36,880 nt of DNA from Nanobdellati archaeon (GTDB taxonomy: Archaea; B1Sed10-29; JAGVWA01), in the NCBI GenBank assembly GCA_018304505.1, contig JAGVWA010000020.1, positions 1 through 36,880 of the forward strand. The letters run 5' to 3'. Below are positions 7,314 through 21,264 of this stretch, piece after piece. Within the stretch, counting starts at the first letter, position 1; each line of letters opens with the position of its first letter. The notes under the pieces were generated by a model that searched no databases, was not told the DNA's origin, and was given only the letters and a program-made list of their open reading frames with translations. The position numbers and the translations under genes are program-made.

Positions 7314-8384
7314 ATGATAAACGGAGGCAAGGGCTTCATTTTCACGTTGGCAGCAACCGCGGCATTCATTATGATTTTAGCAGCCATGGTGTTCTTCATT
7401 ATCAACCAGGCGCAGAAGAGCCCCCTGCTCATTAATGTCAAGCAGAACATGGGCCTTCAGGATTCTGTTTTCAAGCTTTTGAATGACAAGCTCATGTTAA
7501 ATCATTCACGGACAAGCAACACCTATATGATTACAGAGGCGTATGCCCCGACCAAGCAGTCGTCGTTGGCAACAAAGGTGGCGTCGATAGCCGCGATTGC
7601 AAATACCACAGCATTCCGGTCTGGCCTGAACTTCTCGTTCAACAACCAGGGCTTCTCGCTGCTGAACCTGAGGTCAAAGGGTTTCTCCTATTACTGGTTG
7701 TCCAACACGGATCTGCTGATTGAGGCGAACTCAAGCCATGAAAACTTCACAGCGTTGAATTTGTCTTTCTCCACAACCGCGAACTCAAACAACATAACCA
7801 ACAACTGCTCAGGCAGCGGTAATGTAACAATCACCGTGGCTTCAAATAATCAACAAGCGTCAGCGACACCAACAGGGAGCTGTACGATAACCATCAATTA
7901 CCCAAGTAATTCGATTGCCGTGAACTACATCAGCGACAATTCCTGGAACGTGTCGTTCGCTGGCATGCCAGACAACGCAGTAATCACGGCTAACATTTCA
8001 GTAAGCCCAGGCACGAATTTCGCAGACTTCAGCAGCATAATTTACAGGGCAACGCTGACGACATCCAACCCTGGAGTTACGGAACCAACATACCCTGGCA
8101 CAACTGCTGCGATAAAATACTTTGGAAACGTCACTGTGGAAGCCCAGGTATACCAAGTAATCGTTATTGATTATGACAATGATTCGGTGTATGAATCGGC
8201 ATACTTTGACGTGGATCAGGACAACGCCTTTAACAGCAGTGCAGACCTTAAGTTAGTGAGGCGGGGCGTAGCAATATATTTAAACAACAGGGTCCTTCTA
8301 GTGGACAGTGGCACTGCGGAAATCACCTTACTGAGTAAGCTTGGCGTTTTCGCAAAACGAGGGGAAGTTACAGTGATTCGATGA
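7314..8384 (+). CDS. Large pilin-like surface protein
   Basis: I start this gene at ATG 7314 (MINGGKGFIFTLAATAAF), giving 356 residues. The frame is open back to 7185, but that longer start would lie deep inside the previous gene and place 43 charged residues before the signal. The N-terminal helix ends near residue 30. The long Asn/Ser/Thr-rich ectodomain resembles a secreted beta protein, and a D-x-D-x-D stretch near residue 290 (DYDNDSVYESAYFDVDQDN) could bind calcium. It lies 8 nt after the previous gene and overlaps the next by 4 bp (ATGA). Probably a longer pilus subunit or tip protein. Confidence 0.7.
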   Translation: MINGGKGFIFTLAATAAFIMILAAMVFFIINQAQKSPLLINVKQNMGLQDSVFKLLNDKLMLNHSRTSNTYMITEAYAPTKQSSLATKVASIAAIANTTAFRSGLNFSFNNQGFSLLNLRSKGFSYYWLSNTDLLIEANSSHENFTALNLSFSTTANSNNITNNCSGSGNVTITVASNNQQASATPTGSCTITINYPSNSIAVNYISDNSWNVSFAGMPDNAVITANISVSPGTNFADFSSIIYRATLTTSNPGVTEPTYPGTTAAIKYFGNVTVEAQVYQVIVIDYDNDSVYESAYFDVDQDNAFNSSADLKLVRRGVAIYLNNRVLLVDSGTAEITLLSKLGVFAKRGEVTVIR

Positions 8385-9127
8385 AGGAAAACATTGAGAC
8401 GAAGGCTGACCAGCTGTATAGCATGGTGATAAAGCAGAAGAAAATAAGCATTAGCGAGGTAGCCAAGGTCTTGGACATGGAGCCGCAGCTTGCAGAAAAA
8501 TGGGGCAAGGTGCTGGCAGAGGACAAGTTCATAAGAATGGTTTACCCGTCAAACATCCTGCAGGAGCCGTACCTTGAAGCTGTGGCAGAAATTGCTGAAG
8601 CCCCAAAGACCAAAAAATCAGACAACATCTTCGACATCTTGAGAAAAGGCCTCGTTGGTTTCGAGGAATGGAAGGAGGAAAAAATGCAGATGAAGGCAAA
8701 GCTCGAGAAAATAGAGCAGACGGAAAAGGAGTTCTTCAAAAAGCACAAGGAGGAAATTAAGGCGCAAACAGGGATGAAACACAGGGCCAAGGCGCTCCCA
8801 AGCAGCCTCATGGACAGGCAGGCCGCCAAGAGGCTTGAAAACCTGAGGCTCGTCAATGAAGCAGAAGCCAAGAAGGCAGAAGGCGCACTACTGGAAATGT
8901 ACAACGCAGGCCTTGTTGGAAAAAAACTCAGCGATGATGAACTAAAGCAGGTCCTCAGTGATCCGCAAAAGGCGATTGAAAATGCGCAAGCGCCAGACAA
9001 GGCAAAAGAAAGCATGGACAAGCGATATGTAAAAGCGATATCCGCAAGGGCAAAACAAGTAGTGACAAAACAGGTGGTCAAGAGCAAACCAGAGAAAGCA
9101 CCCCGGATAAGCAGCAAAAAGAAGTGA
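8381..9127 (+). CDS. Winged-helix protein with PDCD5-like segment, pilus operon
   Basis: 248 residues, cytoplasmic, Lys-rich. Residues about 5-60 look like a winged helix (SISEVAKVLDMEPQLAEKWGKVLAED), as in archaeal DNA-binding or cytosolic accessory proteins. Residues about 95-135 are a charged coiled coil. Residues about 144-194 (RLENLRLVNEAEAKKAEG, then YNAGL and DDELKQVL) closely follow the core helices of the PDCD5 DNA-binding family, including the PDCD5 gene at 20193 in this same window (RLANLRLANEEMAEQIEA, HQAGQL, DGDLKQLL). The C-terminus is a basic tail. The gene overlaps both neighbours by 4 bp, between a pilin-like gene and the ATPase, so it is likely a pilus regulator or a cytosolic adaptor of the ATPase. 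The domain combination is unusual and I know no named family for it. Confidence 0.7.
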   Translation: MKENIETKADQLYSMVIKQKKISISEVAKVLDMEPQLAEKWGKVLAEDKFIRMVYPSNILQEPYLEAVAEIAEAPKTKKSDNIFDILRKGLVGFEEWKEEKMQMKAKLEKIEQTEKEFFKKHKEEIKAQTGMKHRAKALPSSLMDRQAAKRLENLRLVNEAEAKKAEGALLEMYNAGLVGKKLSDDELKQVLSDPQKAIENAQAPDKAKESMDKRYVKAISARAKQVVTKQVVKSKPEKAPRISSKKK

Positions 9128-16184: not shown

Positions 16185-16291
16185 GGGCCCGTAGCTCAGT
16201 CTCCAACCAAAACTCAGGTCTTGGCTGGCTGAATTGGCAGAGCGCCTGGCTTTTAACCAGGGTGTCAGGGGTTCAAATCCCCCCGGGCTCG
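16185..16291 (+). tRNA. tRNA-Lys(UUU) with probable D-loop intron
   Basis: Acceptor 5' strand GGGCCCG (16185-16191) pairs with CGGGCTC (16284-16290); discriminator G at 16291; no encoded CCA. Anticodon arm 16245-16261: CCTGG-CTTTTAA-CCAGG, anticodon TTT. T-arm 16267-16283 with the TTCAAAT loop (one A-C mismatch at its base). The D-arm is interrupted: GCTC at 16194-16197 and GAGC at 16240-16243 are separated by 42 instead of about 8 nt. Removing about 33 nt restores GCTC-AGTTGGCA-GAGC, a canonical D-arm. A TATA-like CTATAATA at 16150-16157 lies upstream. Confidence 0.85.
16201..16234 (+). other. Probable noncanonical tRNA intron (D-loop, near position 16/17)
   Basis: About 33 nt, boundary uncertain by 1-2 nt. 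The borders can fold as a bulge-helix-bulge, the substrate of archaeal tRNA splicing endonuclease: TCAG (16196-16199) pairs with CTGA (16229-16232) as the four-base central helix, flanked by three-base bulges TCT (16200-16202) and ATT (16233-16235). The intron itself closes with CCAACCAA (16203-16210) against TTGGCTGG (16221-16228), one mismatch. The outer helix is weak. Confidence 0.75.
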
Positions 16292-19130: not shown

Positions 19131-19481
19131 ATGGCGAAACGCGATGCTCCGCGCAGGCGGCAAAAACCGAATTGGGTGAAGGACCTCGCACTGAAACGGA
19201 TAAGGCGGCTTTTCGAGCTCGCGGAGCAGGAACTCGAGGTGCACCCAGATCGAACAAGGCGTTATGTTGAACTTGCGCGGAAGCTTTCTACAAAATACAA
19301 CACAACGATTCCGAAGGAATTGAAGGAAAAGATGTGCAAGCAGTGCAATTCCCTGTTGATAGAAGGGAAATCGATGCGTGTAGAGCAAGTGTCGAAGGTG
19401 AATTATGCGCTTGCGGTGTGCCTGAACTGCATGAACGCGAAAAAGCGCTTTTTGGGAAGTTGGCTTCGGCAGCAGCTTTGA
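19131..19481 (+). CDS. rnp4: RNase P protein component 4 (Rpp21)
   Basis: 116 residues, normal for archaeal Rpp21. The N-terminal helices (ALKRIRRLFELAEQELE, YVELARKLSTKYN) and the zinc ribbon CKQCNSLL ... CLNCMN are the family's signature. With Rpp29 it assists the RNase P RNA in 5' tRNA maturation. It opens the conserved archaeal cluster that continues with S19e and PDCD5. Confidence 0.93.
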   Translation: MAKRDAPRRRQKPNWVKDLALKRIRRLFELAEQELEVHPDRTRRYVELARKLSTKYNTTIPKELKEKMCKQCNSLLIEGKSMRVEQVSKVNYALAVCLNCMNAKKRFLGSWLRQQL

Positions 19482-19648: not shown

Positions 19649-20368
19649 ATGGTTTCAGTGCTAGAAGTCAATGCACAGCAGCTCATAAACAACGTGGCAG
19701 AAAAGCTCAAGACACAATACAAGATACAGCAACCCGCGTGGGTAGGCTATGTTAAGACCGGCGTGCACAGGGAAAGGCGGCCCCAGAACGAGGACTGGTT
19801 CTTTGTTAGGAGCGCCTCAGTGCTTAGAAAACTTTACATTGAAGGTAACACCGGAGTGGGCAAATTCAGGGCCTGGTATGGTGGCAAGCAAACCAGAGGG
19901 GTGAAACCAGAACACCACGCTGACGCGTCAGGCAACATCATAAGGAAGTCACTCCAGTCCCTGGAAAAAGCAGGCCTGGTAAAAAAGGAAAACGTTGGTA
20001 GAATCATTACGCCGGAAGGCAGAAAACTGCTTGATAAGGCAACACTGGAGCTGCGCGGAAAGCGCGAGAAGGCAAAGCCAAAGCTCGAATTCCAGAAACC
20101 GAAGAAAAAACCGCAAGCGCAGCCAAAGGCGCCAGCAAAGCCACAGAAAATCGAATCAGAGGCTAAGACTGAAAAGAAGGAAGTGAAGAAGAGTGCAGCA
20201 AGAAAACCTGGACCAGCTAAGGCAGCAGCGACTAAACCAGCTGCTACAAAGTCAGCAAAACCAGGAACTAGCAAGACAGCAGGCAAAACTGCAAGTAAGG
20301 CAGGCGCTAAGAAAACTACTAAGCCCCCAGGCGCAGGAAAGGCTAGCAAACCTAAGGCTAGCAAATGA
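19649..20368 (+). CDS. rps19e: Ribosomal protein S19e with long C-terminal tail
   Basis: 239 residues; archaeal S19e is normally about 150. Residues 1-145 are ordinary S19e (QQPAWVGYVKTGVHRERRPQ, GVKPEHHADASGNIIRKSLQ, LEKAGLVKK), a small-subunit protein. The last 95 residues are a Lys/Ala/Pro/Thr-rich, probably unstructured tail (KPKKKPQAQPKAPAKPQK and on). From 20193 the same DNA also encodes the first 58 residues of PDCD5 in the +1 frame. Basic tails also occur on L31e and FtsY in this cluster, so the tail itself fits the organism; how far the overlapping part is functional is open. Confidence 0.9.
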   Translation: MVSVLEVNAQQLINNVAEKLKTQYKIQQPAWVGYVKTGVHRERRPQNEDWFFVRSASVLRKLYIEGNTGVGKFRAWYGGKQTRGVKPEHHADASGNIIRKSLQSLEKAGLVKKENVGRIITPEGRKLLDKATLELRGKREKAKPKLEFQKPKKKPQAQPKAPAKPQKIESEAKTEKKEVKKSAARKPGPAKAAATKPAATKSAKPGTSKTAGKTASKAGAKKTTKPPGAGKASKPKASK

Positions 20369-20516
20369 GGAAATGGCCGAGCAAATCGAAGCCCTGATAG
20401 TCTACATGCATCAGGCTGGCCAACTCAAGGCCCCACTACAAGACGGGGACCTGAAACAATTGCTGCTAACAATCAACGCACGCAACACAAGAAAAACTAA
20501 AATAACGAGAAAGTGA
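20193..20516 (+). CDS. PDCD5-family DNA-binding protein
   Basis: 107 residues from a GTG at 20193. The Gln/Leu/Arg-rich first helix (NLDQLRQQRLNQLLQ) and the core LLSPQAQERLANLRLANEEM, then MHQAGQL and DGDLKQLLLTI are the complete PDCD5 fold. Archaeal members bind nucleic acids; the exact role is unknown. The family nearly always follows S19e. Here 176 nt (20193-20368) overlap the end of the S19e gene in another frame. No later start is acceptable because the conserved core lies within the overlap. The next gene begins 4 nt downstream. Confidence 0.9.
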   Translation: MQQENLDQLRQQRLNQLLQSQQNQELARQQAKLQVRQALRKLLSPQAQERLANLRLANEEMAEQIEALIVYMHQAGQLKAPLQDGDLKQLLLTINARNTRKTKITRK

Positions 20517-20520
20517 TAAA

Positions 20521-20757
20521 ATGGCGAGAAACAAATCCCAAAGGAAGAAAATGCACATTGTGAAGGCGAAGAAGACCAACAGGCGCGTACCGGTGTTCCT
20601 AGTGCCGAAAATGCGAGACCGCAATGTGTATAGGGAATCAGCACCACGCGGATGGCGCCATGGCAAGGGCCTGTTTAGCAAGATCAAGACAGCATTCATG
20701 AGAAACCTCTGGAACAGGGGAAAGCACAACACGAAGGAAAGATTCCAATTAAAGTGA
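20521..20757 (+). CDS. rpl39e: Ribosomal protein L39e with C-terminal extension
   Basis: 78 residues, where L39e is usually about 50. MARNKSQRKKMHIVKAKKTN then RRVPVFLVPKMRDRNV and APRGWRH follow the L39e pattern; the last 27 residues (LFSKIKTAFMRNLWNRGK and on) are extra. L39e lines the exit tunnel of the large subunit. Position between PDCD5 and L31e is the standard archaeal order. Confidence 0.85.
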   Translation: MARNKSQRKKMHIVKAKKTNRRVPVFLVPKMRDRNVYRESAPRGWRHGKGLFSKIKTAFMRNLWNRGKHNTKERFQLK

Positions 20758-20763
20758 TGAACA

Positions 20764-21264
20764 ATGGCAGCTGAAGAAAAGAAAACAGATGAAGTGGGCG
20801 AAATAAAGCCGGTGACGGAACCTATGGAATCGGTGGAACAGTCAGCAGCTGAAGCAAAGGCTGCACCAGAAGAAAAGAAAGCAGCAGCATTAAAAGAAGA
20901 TCCCGAAGACAAAACACAAGCAGCAGCAAAGGAAGAACCAAAATCGGCAGTGAAGGAAGAGCCTAAATCTGCGGCGAAGGAAGAACCAAAACCAGCAGAA
21001 AAGGCTGAAGAGCGTGTCCTGACCCTGCCGCTGAGGGATGCCTGGAAATCGGCAAGAAGCAACCGTACAAAGGCCGCCATCTCGGTTTTGAAGAAACAGC
21101 TAAAGAAGCATTTCAGGCAAGAGCCAAAGATTGACAAGTCACTTAACGAAGCCATCTGGGCCCACGGGCTGCACAAGCCCCCCAGGAGGATCCAAGTCAG
21201 GGTTAGAAAAACGGCAACAGAACTCCTCGCATTTCCCGTAACAAAGACCGTGAAAAAGCAATGA
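20764..21264 (+). CDS. rpl31e: Ribosomal protein L31e with long N-terminal extension
   Basis: 166 residues; the L31e core is the last 85 (ERVLTLPLRDAWKSARSNRT, IDKSLNEAIWAHGLHKPPRR). The first 80 residues are a Lys/Glu/Ala-rich low-complexity extension with the near-repeat KEEPKSA three times. L31e lies near the tunnel exit, where such an extension could contact SRP or chaperones (inference). It overlaps aIF6 by 4 bp (ATGA). Confidence 0.9.
   Translation: MAAEEKKTDEVGEIKPVTEPMESVEQSAAEAKAAPEEKKAAALKEDPEDKTQAAAKEEPKSAVKEEPKSAAKEEPKPAEKAEERVLTLPLRDAWKSARSNRTKAAISVLKKQLKKHFRQEPKIDKSLNEAIWAHGLHKPPRRIQVRVRKTATELLAFPVTKTVKKQ

Follow-up and report, generated by a model that had tools for sequence, protein, structure and literature searches.

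An overlap of the S19e and PDCD5 genes that is probably used in two reading frames in five families of an archaeal order

Can the same 176 nt code for the end of a ribosomal protein and, in another frame, for the conserved first half of the protein encoded next to it? This question is raised by the genes for S19e and PDCD5 in an archaeal draft genome of 917 kb (G000). Both genes are located on contig C5 in a stretch of 36,880 nt, which was analyzed as a whole and is called the window in the following. Pfam matches define the operon order RPR2 – S19e – PDCD5 – L39e – L31e – eIF6 on the plus strand (Table 1). In a survey of 715 co-directional prokaryotic overlaps of more than 60 bp none was accepted as real, and the longest overlap accepted in this 2008 survey was the one of holD and rimI with 56 bp (Palleja 2008, PMC2478687).

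Table 1 Features of the S19e/PDCD5 region (coordinates refer to the window)
Feature	Position	Strand	Remarks
RPR2 (Rpp21-type RNase P protein subunit), upstream neighbor	19131..19481	+	PF04032, E 2.6e-14
S19e (eS19) gene, 239 aa, about 100 residues past the globular core	19649..20368	+	PF01090
First part of the S19e C-terminal tail (residues 140-181), coding for S19e only	20066..20192	+	K/P/Q/A-rich, 36% Lys/Arg, 14% Asp/Glu
Shine-Dalgarno-like sequence GGAAGTGA, within S19e codons	20179..20186	+	7/8 match to GGAGGTGA, 6 nt before the PDCD5 GTG
Candidate dual-coding stretch, S19e residues 182-239 (frame 0) and PDCD5 residues 1-58 (+1 frame)	20193..20368	+	
PDCD5 (dsDNA_bind family) gene, 107 aa	20193..20516	+	PF01984
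L39e, downstream neighbor, no overlap	20521..20757	+	PF00832, E 3.7e-4, just under the cut-off
L31e, downstream neighbor with acidic/mixed N-terminal extension	20764..21264	+	PF01198, residues 97-149

The S19e reading frame extends from its ATG to the TGA at 20366-20368 and is not interrupted by any earlier stop codon. PDCD5 is read from the GTG at 20193 in the +1 frame relative to S19e, and the two genes form a co-directional pair of open reading frames in different frames; the third frame of the shared stretch contains nine stop codons. The initial annotation, which had proposed that these 176 bases are used in two frames from the GTG up to the S19e stop codon at 20368, is borne out by the ORF coordinates and the Pfam matches. 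It had also placed the PDCD5 motif SPQAQERLANLRLANEE inside the overlap, and this holds for most of the motif, the final residue or two being encoded beyond it (E60 at 20370-20372). The GTG at 20193 is the only start codon of the PDCD5 frame upstream of the homologous region. The next in-frame ATG is codon 61, located past the S19e stop codon, and a start at this position was rejected since half of the conserved domain would be lost. On the minus strand there is an ORF of 176 aa (19834-20364) with a hydrophobic and repetitive translation; the recurrent Lys/Ala/Thr codons of the plus strand probably give rise to it incidentally.

Both reading frames encode recognizable family members. Residues 4-134 of S19e match PF01090 (profile positions 2-133 of 137, E 1.1e-52), which places the protein in the eS19 family, and the solved archaeal S19e chains (6skf, 2v7f) align to residues 1-147 only. 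In the structural model of S19e the core is confident and most of the tail has a pLDDT below about 50, i.e., the tail is predicted to be disordered. The overlapped part of the tail contains no Asp/Glu (0%) and 28% Lys/Arg. An earlier comparison of this tail with the extensions of L31e and FtsY does not hold, as these sit at the N-terminus and have an acidic or mixed composition (27% and 22% Asp/Glu). The extension of L31e comprises about 90 residues of low complexity ahead of the ribosomal domain.

PDCD5 matches PF01984 with residues 9-105 (profile positions 1-102 of 106, E 5.2e-18), and this match includes the half that is encoded in the overlap. The model of the G000 protein, calculated from an alignment of 15 sequences, has a mean pLDDT of 82 and its best fold match is PDCD5 from Sulfolobus (6iqc, prob 1.00, TM 0.79). 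In this model the overlap encodes the helices 2–42 and 45–57. A second protein with a PDCD5-type domain is encoded in the window at 8381-9127 (248 aa, PF01984 at residues 106-196); here the domain follows a separate N-terminal part which stands alone in relatives, and within the class the joined form is found in G000 only.

Is the overlap a peculiarity of this one genome? The order to which G000 belongs is represented by eight genomes, and five of them, each from a different family, carry the overlap in the same phase. Its length is 176 nt in G000, 185 or 194 nt in G001 (with two possible starts), 176 nt in G003, 158 nt in G004 and 134 nt in G005. As the initial annotation had stated, PDCD5 is under family constraint: the PDCD5 proteins of all five genomes match PF01984, with a shortened extreme N-terminus in G003, G004, and G005. 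No overlap of S19e and PDCD5 is present in the three genomes of the sixth family of the order (f3; G002, G006, and G007). In the other families of the class S19e has either a basic tail (G008, G010, G012, G013, and G015) or is short (G009 and G011), and overlaps do not exceed 8 nt. All genomes compared are draft assemblies, and the phylum sample consists of 19 genomes, none of them from the family of G000.

A survey of 247 genomes followed, among the matches listed, those S19e frames which have long open ends, and short overlaps may be missed in it. At about 57 junctions from other archaea the overlap is, among the matches listed, at most 41 nt (G078 being the longest) with the single exception of G112, in which S19e with a Thr-rich tail overlaps a PDCD5 gene starting with ATG by 95 nt. 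The overlap of G112 is apparently of independent origin because two genomes of the same family, G092 and G131, are without it.

Most of the reported co-directional overlaps longer than 60 bp are annotation or sequencing errors (PMC2478687), and by this precedent an assembly or sequencing indel could have joined an ordinary S19e stop region into PDCD5. The initial annotation would have been contradicted by relatives with a short S19e together with such an indel, and this combination is not borne out. One family does have a short S19e, yet the same phase and a similar length are found in four independent assemblies besides G000, each from another family. The phase, the length class and the context of the start site thus recur in five independent assemblies from different families, and moreover both frames behave like coding sequence. 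We therefore reject an artefact, the overlap being common to relatives, and regard its residual chance as negligible. The overlap is conserved in relatives and not a product of annotation.

Conservation of an overlap does not by itself tell whether the S19e tail matters. The neutral explanation holds that the S19e stop codon was lost long ago, that a useless tail has been translated ever since and that the codons of PDCD5 yield few stop codons in this frame. Neutral models can indeed account for the excess of long phase-1 overlaps without selection (Sabath 2008, PMC2542354; Fonseca 2013, PMC3887535), and for this reason we base the claim of selection on tests of codon choice. Each S19e codon within the overlap takes its first base from the wobble position of a PDCD5 codon and its other two from positions 1 and 2 of the following one; therefore the synonymous choices made in PDCD5 set the residues of S19e. 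For the tests the PDCD5 protein was held fixed and its codons were resampled synonymously according to the usage of the genome or of the operon; for each genome the codon usage was drawn from contigs totaling roughly 12–40 kb.

Under genome usage the probability that the S19e frame is free of stop codons amounts to 0.21 in G000, 0.16 in G001, 0.029 in G003, 0.058 in G004, and 0.032 in G005; under operon usage the respective values are 0.30, 0.30, 0.021, 0.050, and 0.036. For G000, with P of about 0.2-0.3 given its PDCD5 protein, the open frame alone is not striking, and the values of G000 and G001 agree with the neutral explanation. The composition of the hidden frame is more telling. The overlapped tail of G000 is entirely without hydrophobic residues (P 0.0008-0.003) and contains 15-16 Lys or Arg residues (P <= 5e-5). 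Across G000, G001, G003, G004, and G005 the counts of hydrophobic residues are 0, 1, 0, 0, and 1, compared with 3–6 expected (P 0.0007-0.035 each). The excess of Lys/Arg is strong in G000, G003, and G004, weak in G001 (P 0.08), where the tail is Ala/Gly-rich, and absent in G005 when judged against operon usage (P 0.44). When combined for the five genomes, whose codon tests are not strictly independent, the P values are 8e-8 for the hydrophobic depletion, 6e-9 for the Lys/Arg excess and 0.005 (Fisher; product of P 3e-6) for the frame being open in all five under operon usage.

The choice between the codon families of leucine and serine, which differ in the first position, points in the same direction. 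In the overlaps a single leucine is encoded by TTR and 57 by CTN (1/58), where about 16 TTR codons would be expected from genome usage. The TTR/CTN ratio is 7/21 outside the overlap in the same genes and 18/54 in the corresponding region of ten relatives without the overlap (Fisher P 0.0014 compared with the rest of PDCD5 and 1e-4 compared with the ten relatives). For serine the TCN/AGY ratio is 1/8 in the overlaps, 7/1 outside and 14/2 in the ten relatives. The combined pattern is absent in these ten genomes, and in most non-overlapping relatives the same frame has 1-4 stop codons and a normal content of hydrophobic residues. In other gene windows of the same genomes an open hidden frame with equally few hydrophobic residues was not found.

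Two relatives without the overlap, G002 and G007, are also rich in A at the wobble positions, and their hidden frame contains a fair amount of Lys/Arg and one stop codon only. The single stop codon speaks for the neutral explanation; the Lys/Arg signal may partly reflect a codon bias of the lineage or may be the relic of a lost overlap. The same two genomes, being A-rich at the wobble position without any overlap, also lend some weight to the idea that selection acts on an A-rich codon usage at the 5′ end of PDCD5, favoring a weak mRNA structure, and that the basic frame of S19e is only a side effect. This explanation fails, however, to account for G001, in which the frame is open and has one hydrophobic residue without any enrichment of A. 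Moreover, the 5′ windows of other genes from the same genomes do not have such a shift, and an effect at the first position of leucine and serine codons is not explained by A in the wobble position. We judge a side effect of this kind to be improbable.

The neutral explanation we consider unlikely as well, though somewhat less so. It has to face the hydrophobic depletion together with the Lys/Arg excess in three genomes, both given the PDCD5 protein, the avoidance of Leu TTR and Ser TCN which is limited to the overlap, and the stop codons and normal hydrophobic content of most non-overlapping relatives. In addition the overlap has been kept over amino acid branch lengths of about 0.5-0.8 per site between the five genomes, and at such distances synonymous sites should be saturated. 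Judged from the codons the S19e frame within the overlap looks selected. The constraint can be recognized in both frames, in PDCD5 for all five genomes and in the S19e tail strongly for G000, G003, and G004; for G005 it is confined to the hydrophobic residues and for G001 it is weak. The suggestion of the initial annotation that the overprinted tail may be used thus appears to be right, as the codon choice of PDCD5 is bent in favor of the tail.

How could both proteins be made? One polycistronic message presumably bears both genes, as the gene order implies. As there is no S19e stop codon before 20368, the tail must be made whenever S19e is made, barring some unknown event: ribosomes translating S19e would synthesize the basic tail of about 100 residues, the last 58 of which are encoded within the first half of the PDCD5 gene. 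The S19e stop codon is situated 134-194 nt past the PDCD5 start in the five genomes and not near to it as in a termination-reinitiation pair with its short overlap of the ATGA type. This geometry excludes ordinary stop–start coupling and points to an initiation of PDCD5 inside of an mRNA which is crossed by S19e ribosomes. In G000 initiation would take place at the GTG at 20193 from the Shine-Dalgarno-like site inside S19e, and we consider internal initiation likely. The 16S gene of G000 retains the anti-Shine-Dalgarno 3′ end TCACCTCCTT. An exact GGAGG or GGAGGT at a suitable distance before the PDCD5 start is present in G003, G004, and G005, whereas among start codons lying out of frame within genes of these genomes the background is 5-8%; the sites of G000 and G001 are imperfect.

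PDCD5 lies in the +1 frame, which is closed until a few codons ahead of the PDCD5 start. Such an arrangement could also serve a programmed +1 frameshift from S19e into PDCD5 leading to a regulated S19e–PDCD5 fusion protein. In all five genomes, however, a stop codon of the PDCD5 frame is found 2-9 codons before the start, which favors separate starts over a frameshift fusion. Upstream of the start both frames are open over these 2-9 codons only, and no slip site is obviously shared there. Start codons (ATG, GTG, or TTG) with Shine-Dalgarno-like sites are retained, and PDCD5 is a stand-alone protein in relatives. We hold a frameshift to be very improbable.

Two further observations concern RNA genes of this genome. 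The 16S match on contig C15 (18912-21250) is interrupted close to the 3′ end, where about 800 bp separate its two pieces; the second piece includes the 3′ end of the 16S, and the arrangement is consistent with an intron or another insert. At 16226-16283 of the window a tRNA model is matched in part and with a low score (positions 8-63 of the model), and a degenerate copy or an intron-containing tRNA could be present there.

With internal initiation of PDCD5 the division of labor between the codon positions could be as follows. PDCD5 would constrain its codon positions 1 and 2, and its wobble positions together with the choice of Leu CTN over TTR and of Ser AGY over TCN would keep the S19e frame free of stop codons and of hydrophobic residues. 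The same choices would keep this frame mostly rich in Lys, Arg, Thr, and Ala, and selection on both products would hold it open. The S19e tail itself, being predicted as unfolded and positively charged, could act as an arm which probably contacts rRNA or another nucleic acid.

When did the overlap arise? In a tree of six proteins the order forms one clade, and the support within the order is weak (46–78, with the exception of the f3 clade). Neither monophyly of the five overlap genomes nor a nested position of f3 is rejected (p-AU 0.35–0.65, with 0.35–0.40 for the monophyly). Most likely the overlap has a single origin at the base of the order or close to it, and f3 would have lost it or, as sister group, would never have possessed it. 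Basic S19e tails occur across the class; therefore the extension of an existing tail is likelier than a tail arising de novo, and the basic tail probably predates the overlap. The 3′ end of S19e would then have been extended into PDCD5. The initial annotation had assumed that the tail was overprinted after the loss of the S19e stop codon. Overprinting is supported inasmuch as the tail overlies an ancient PDCD5 frame; a simple loss of the stop codon in G000 is not, in view of the five families sharing the overlap and the basic non-overlapping tails elsewhere in the class. A recent event limited to G000 can be rejected on the same ground of five families.

Same-strand overlaps are a known kind of gene arrangement, and it is by its length and age that the S19e/PDCD5 overlap is exceptional. 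The overlap of holD and rimI in Enterobacteria is likewise a terminal co-directional overlap of two conserved genes which is kept across genera (PMC2478687), but it measures 32-56 bp (about 18 aa at most), compared with 134-194 nt kept across families for S19e/PDCD5. In Thermus the genes rnpA and rpmH (Feltens 2003) form a long same-strand overlap involving a ribosomal gene in the other frame. According to the account in PMC9841429 both are described as expressed. The same account has the L34 gene fully nested in the gene of the RNase P protein, with starts one nucleotide apart and a single initiation site. The archaeal pair differs in that the 3′ tail of a ribosomal gene overlies the 5′ half of the gene that follows, which has a separate internal start. 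The Thermus pair is the nearest functional analogue, but it works through a shared start. The short overlaps of 1-8 nt in other archaea (G008, G009, G011, G013, G037, and G054) involve the same pair in the same order; they are compatible with termination–reinitiation, unlike the overlap discussed here. Our literature search found no paper mentioning both S19e and PDCD5.

A comparable arrangement is found in the neighborhood. In G005, G010, and G015 the basic C-terminal tail of RPR2 runs over the first half of YhbY (PF01985) for about 104-137 nt. As with S19e/PDCD5, an RNA-binding protein has a basic C-terminal tail whose codons reach, likewise in the +1 phase, across the conserved 5′ half of the gene that follows. 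The gene pair is a different one, absent as an overlap in G000, and the codon-choice signal is weaker except in G010: it is clear in G010 (P 0.003 for the open frame and 0.003 for the hydrophobic residues), modest in G015 and weak in G005. G005 carries both overlaps. This suggests that the overprinting by flexible basic tails may recur in the RPR2/S19e operon. Other long overlaps listed for G001, G008, G009, and G000 (minus strand) look like shadow ORFs.

To sum up, we are fairly confident from the sequence comparisons that the 176 nt are a genuine and long-maintained dual-coding region with PDCD5 made by internal initiation and with S19e bearing a basic disordered tail. We also lean, with less assurance, towards a wider reading: the order would have kept since its early history an obligate dual-coding stretch, with a selected basic eS19 tail and a folded half of PDCD5 in the same 134-194 nt and PDCD5 started internally. 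Few same-strand overlaps between two ancient cellular genes would be as long and as old, and similar overlaps would have arisen again in G112 and in RPR2/YhbY. With about three times the longest accepted length of 56 bp the overlap combines an ancient gene pair, five families and constraint in both frames. Gene finders which forbid long overlaps will cut S19e or PDCD5 in these genomes. The locus offers a natural system for how a flexible low-complexity tail gets overprinted on a folded domain and for how a gene starts from within an actively translated neighbor.
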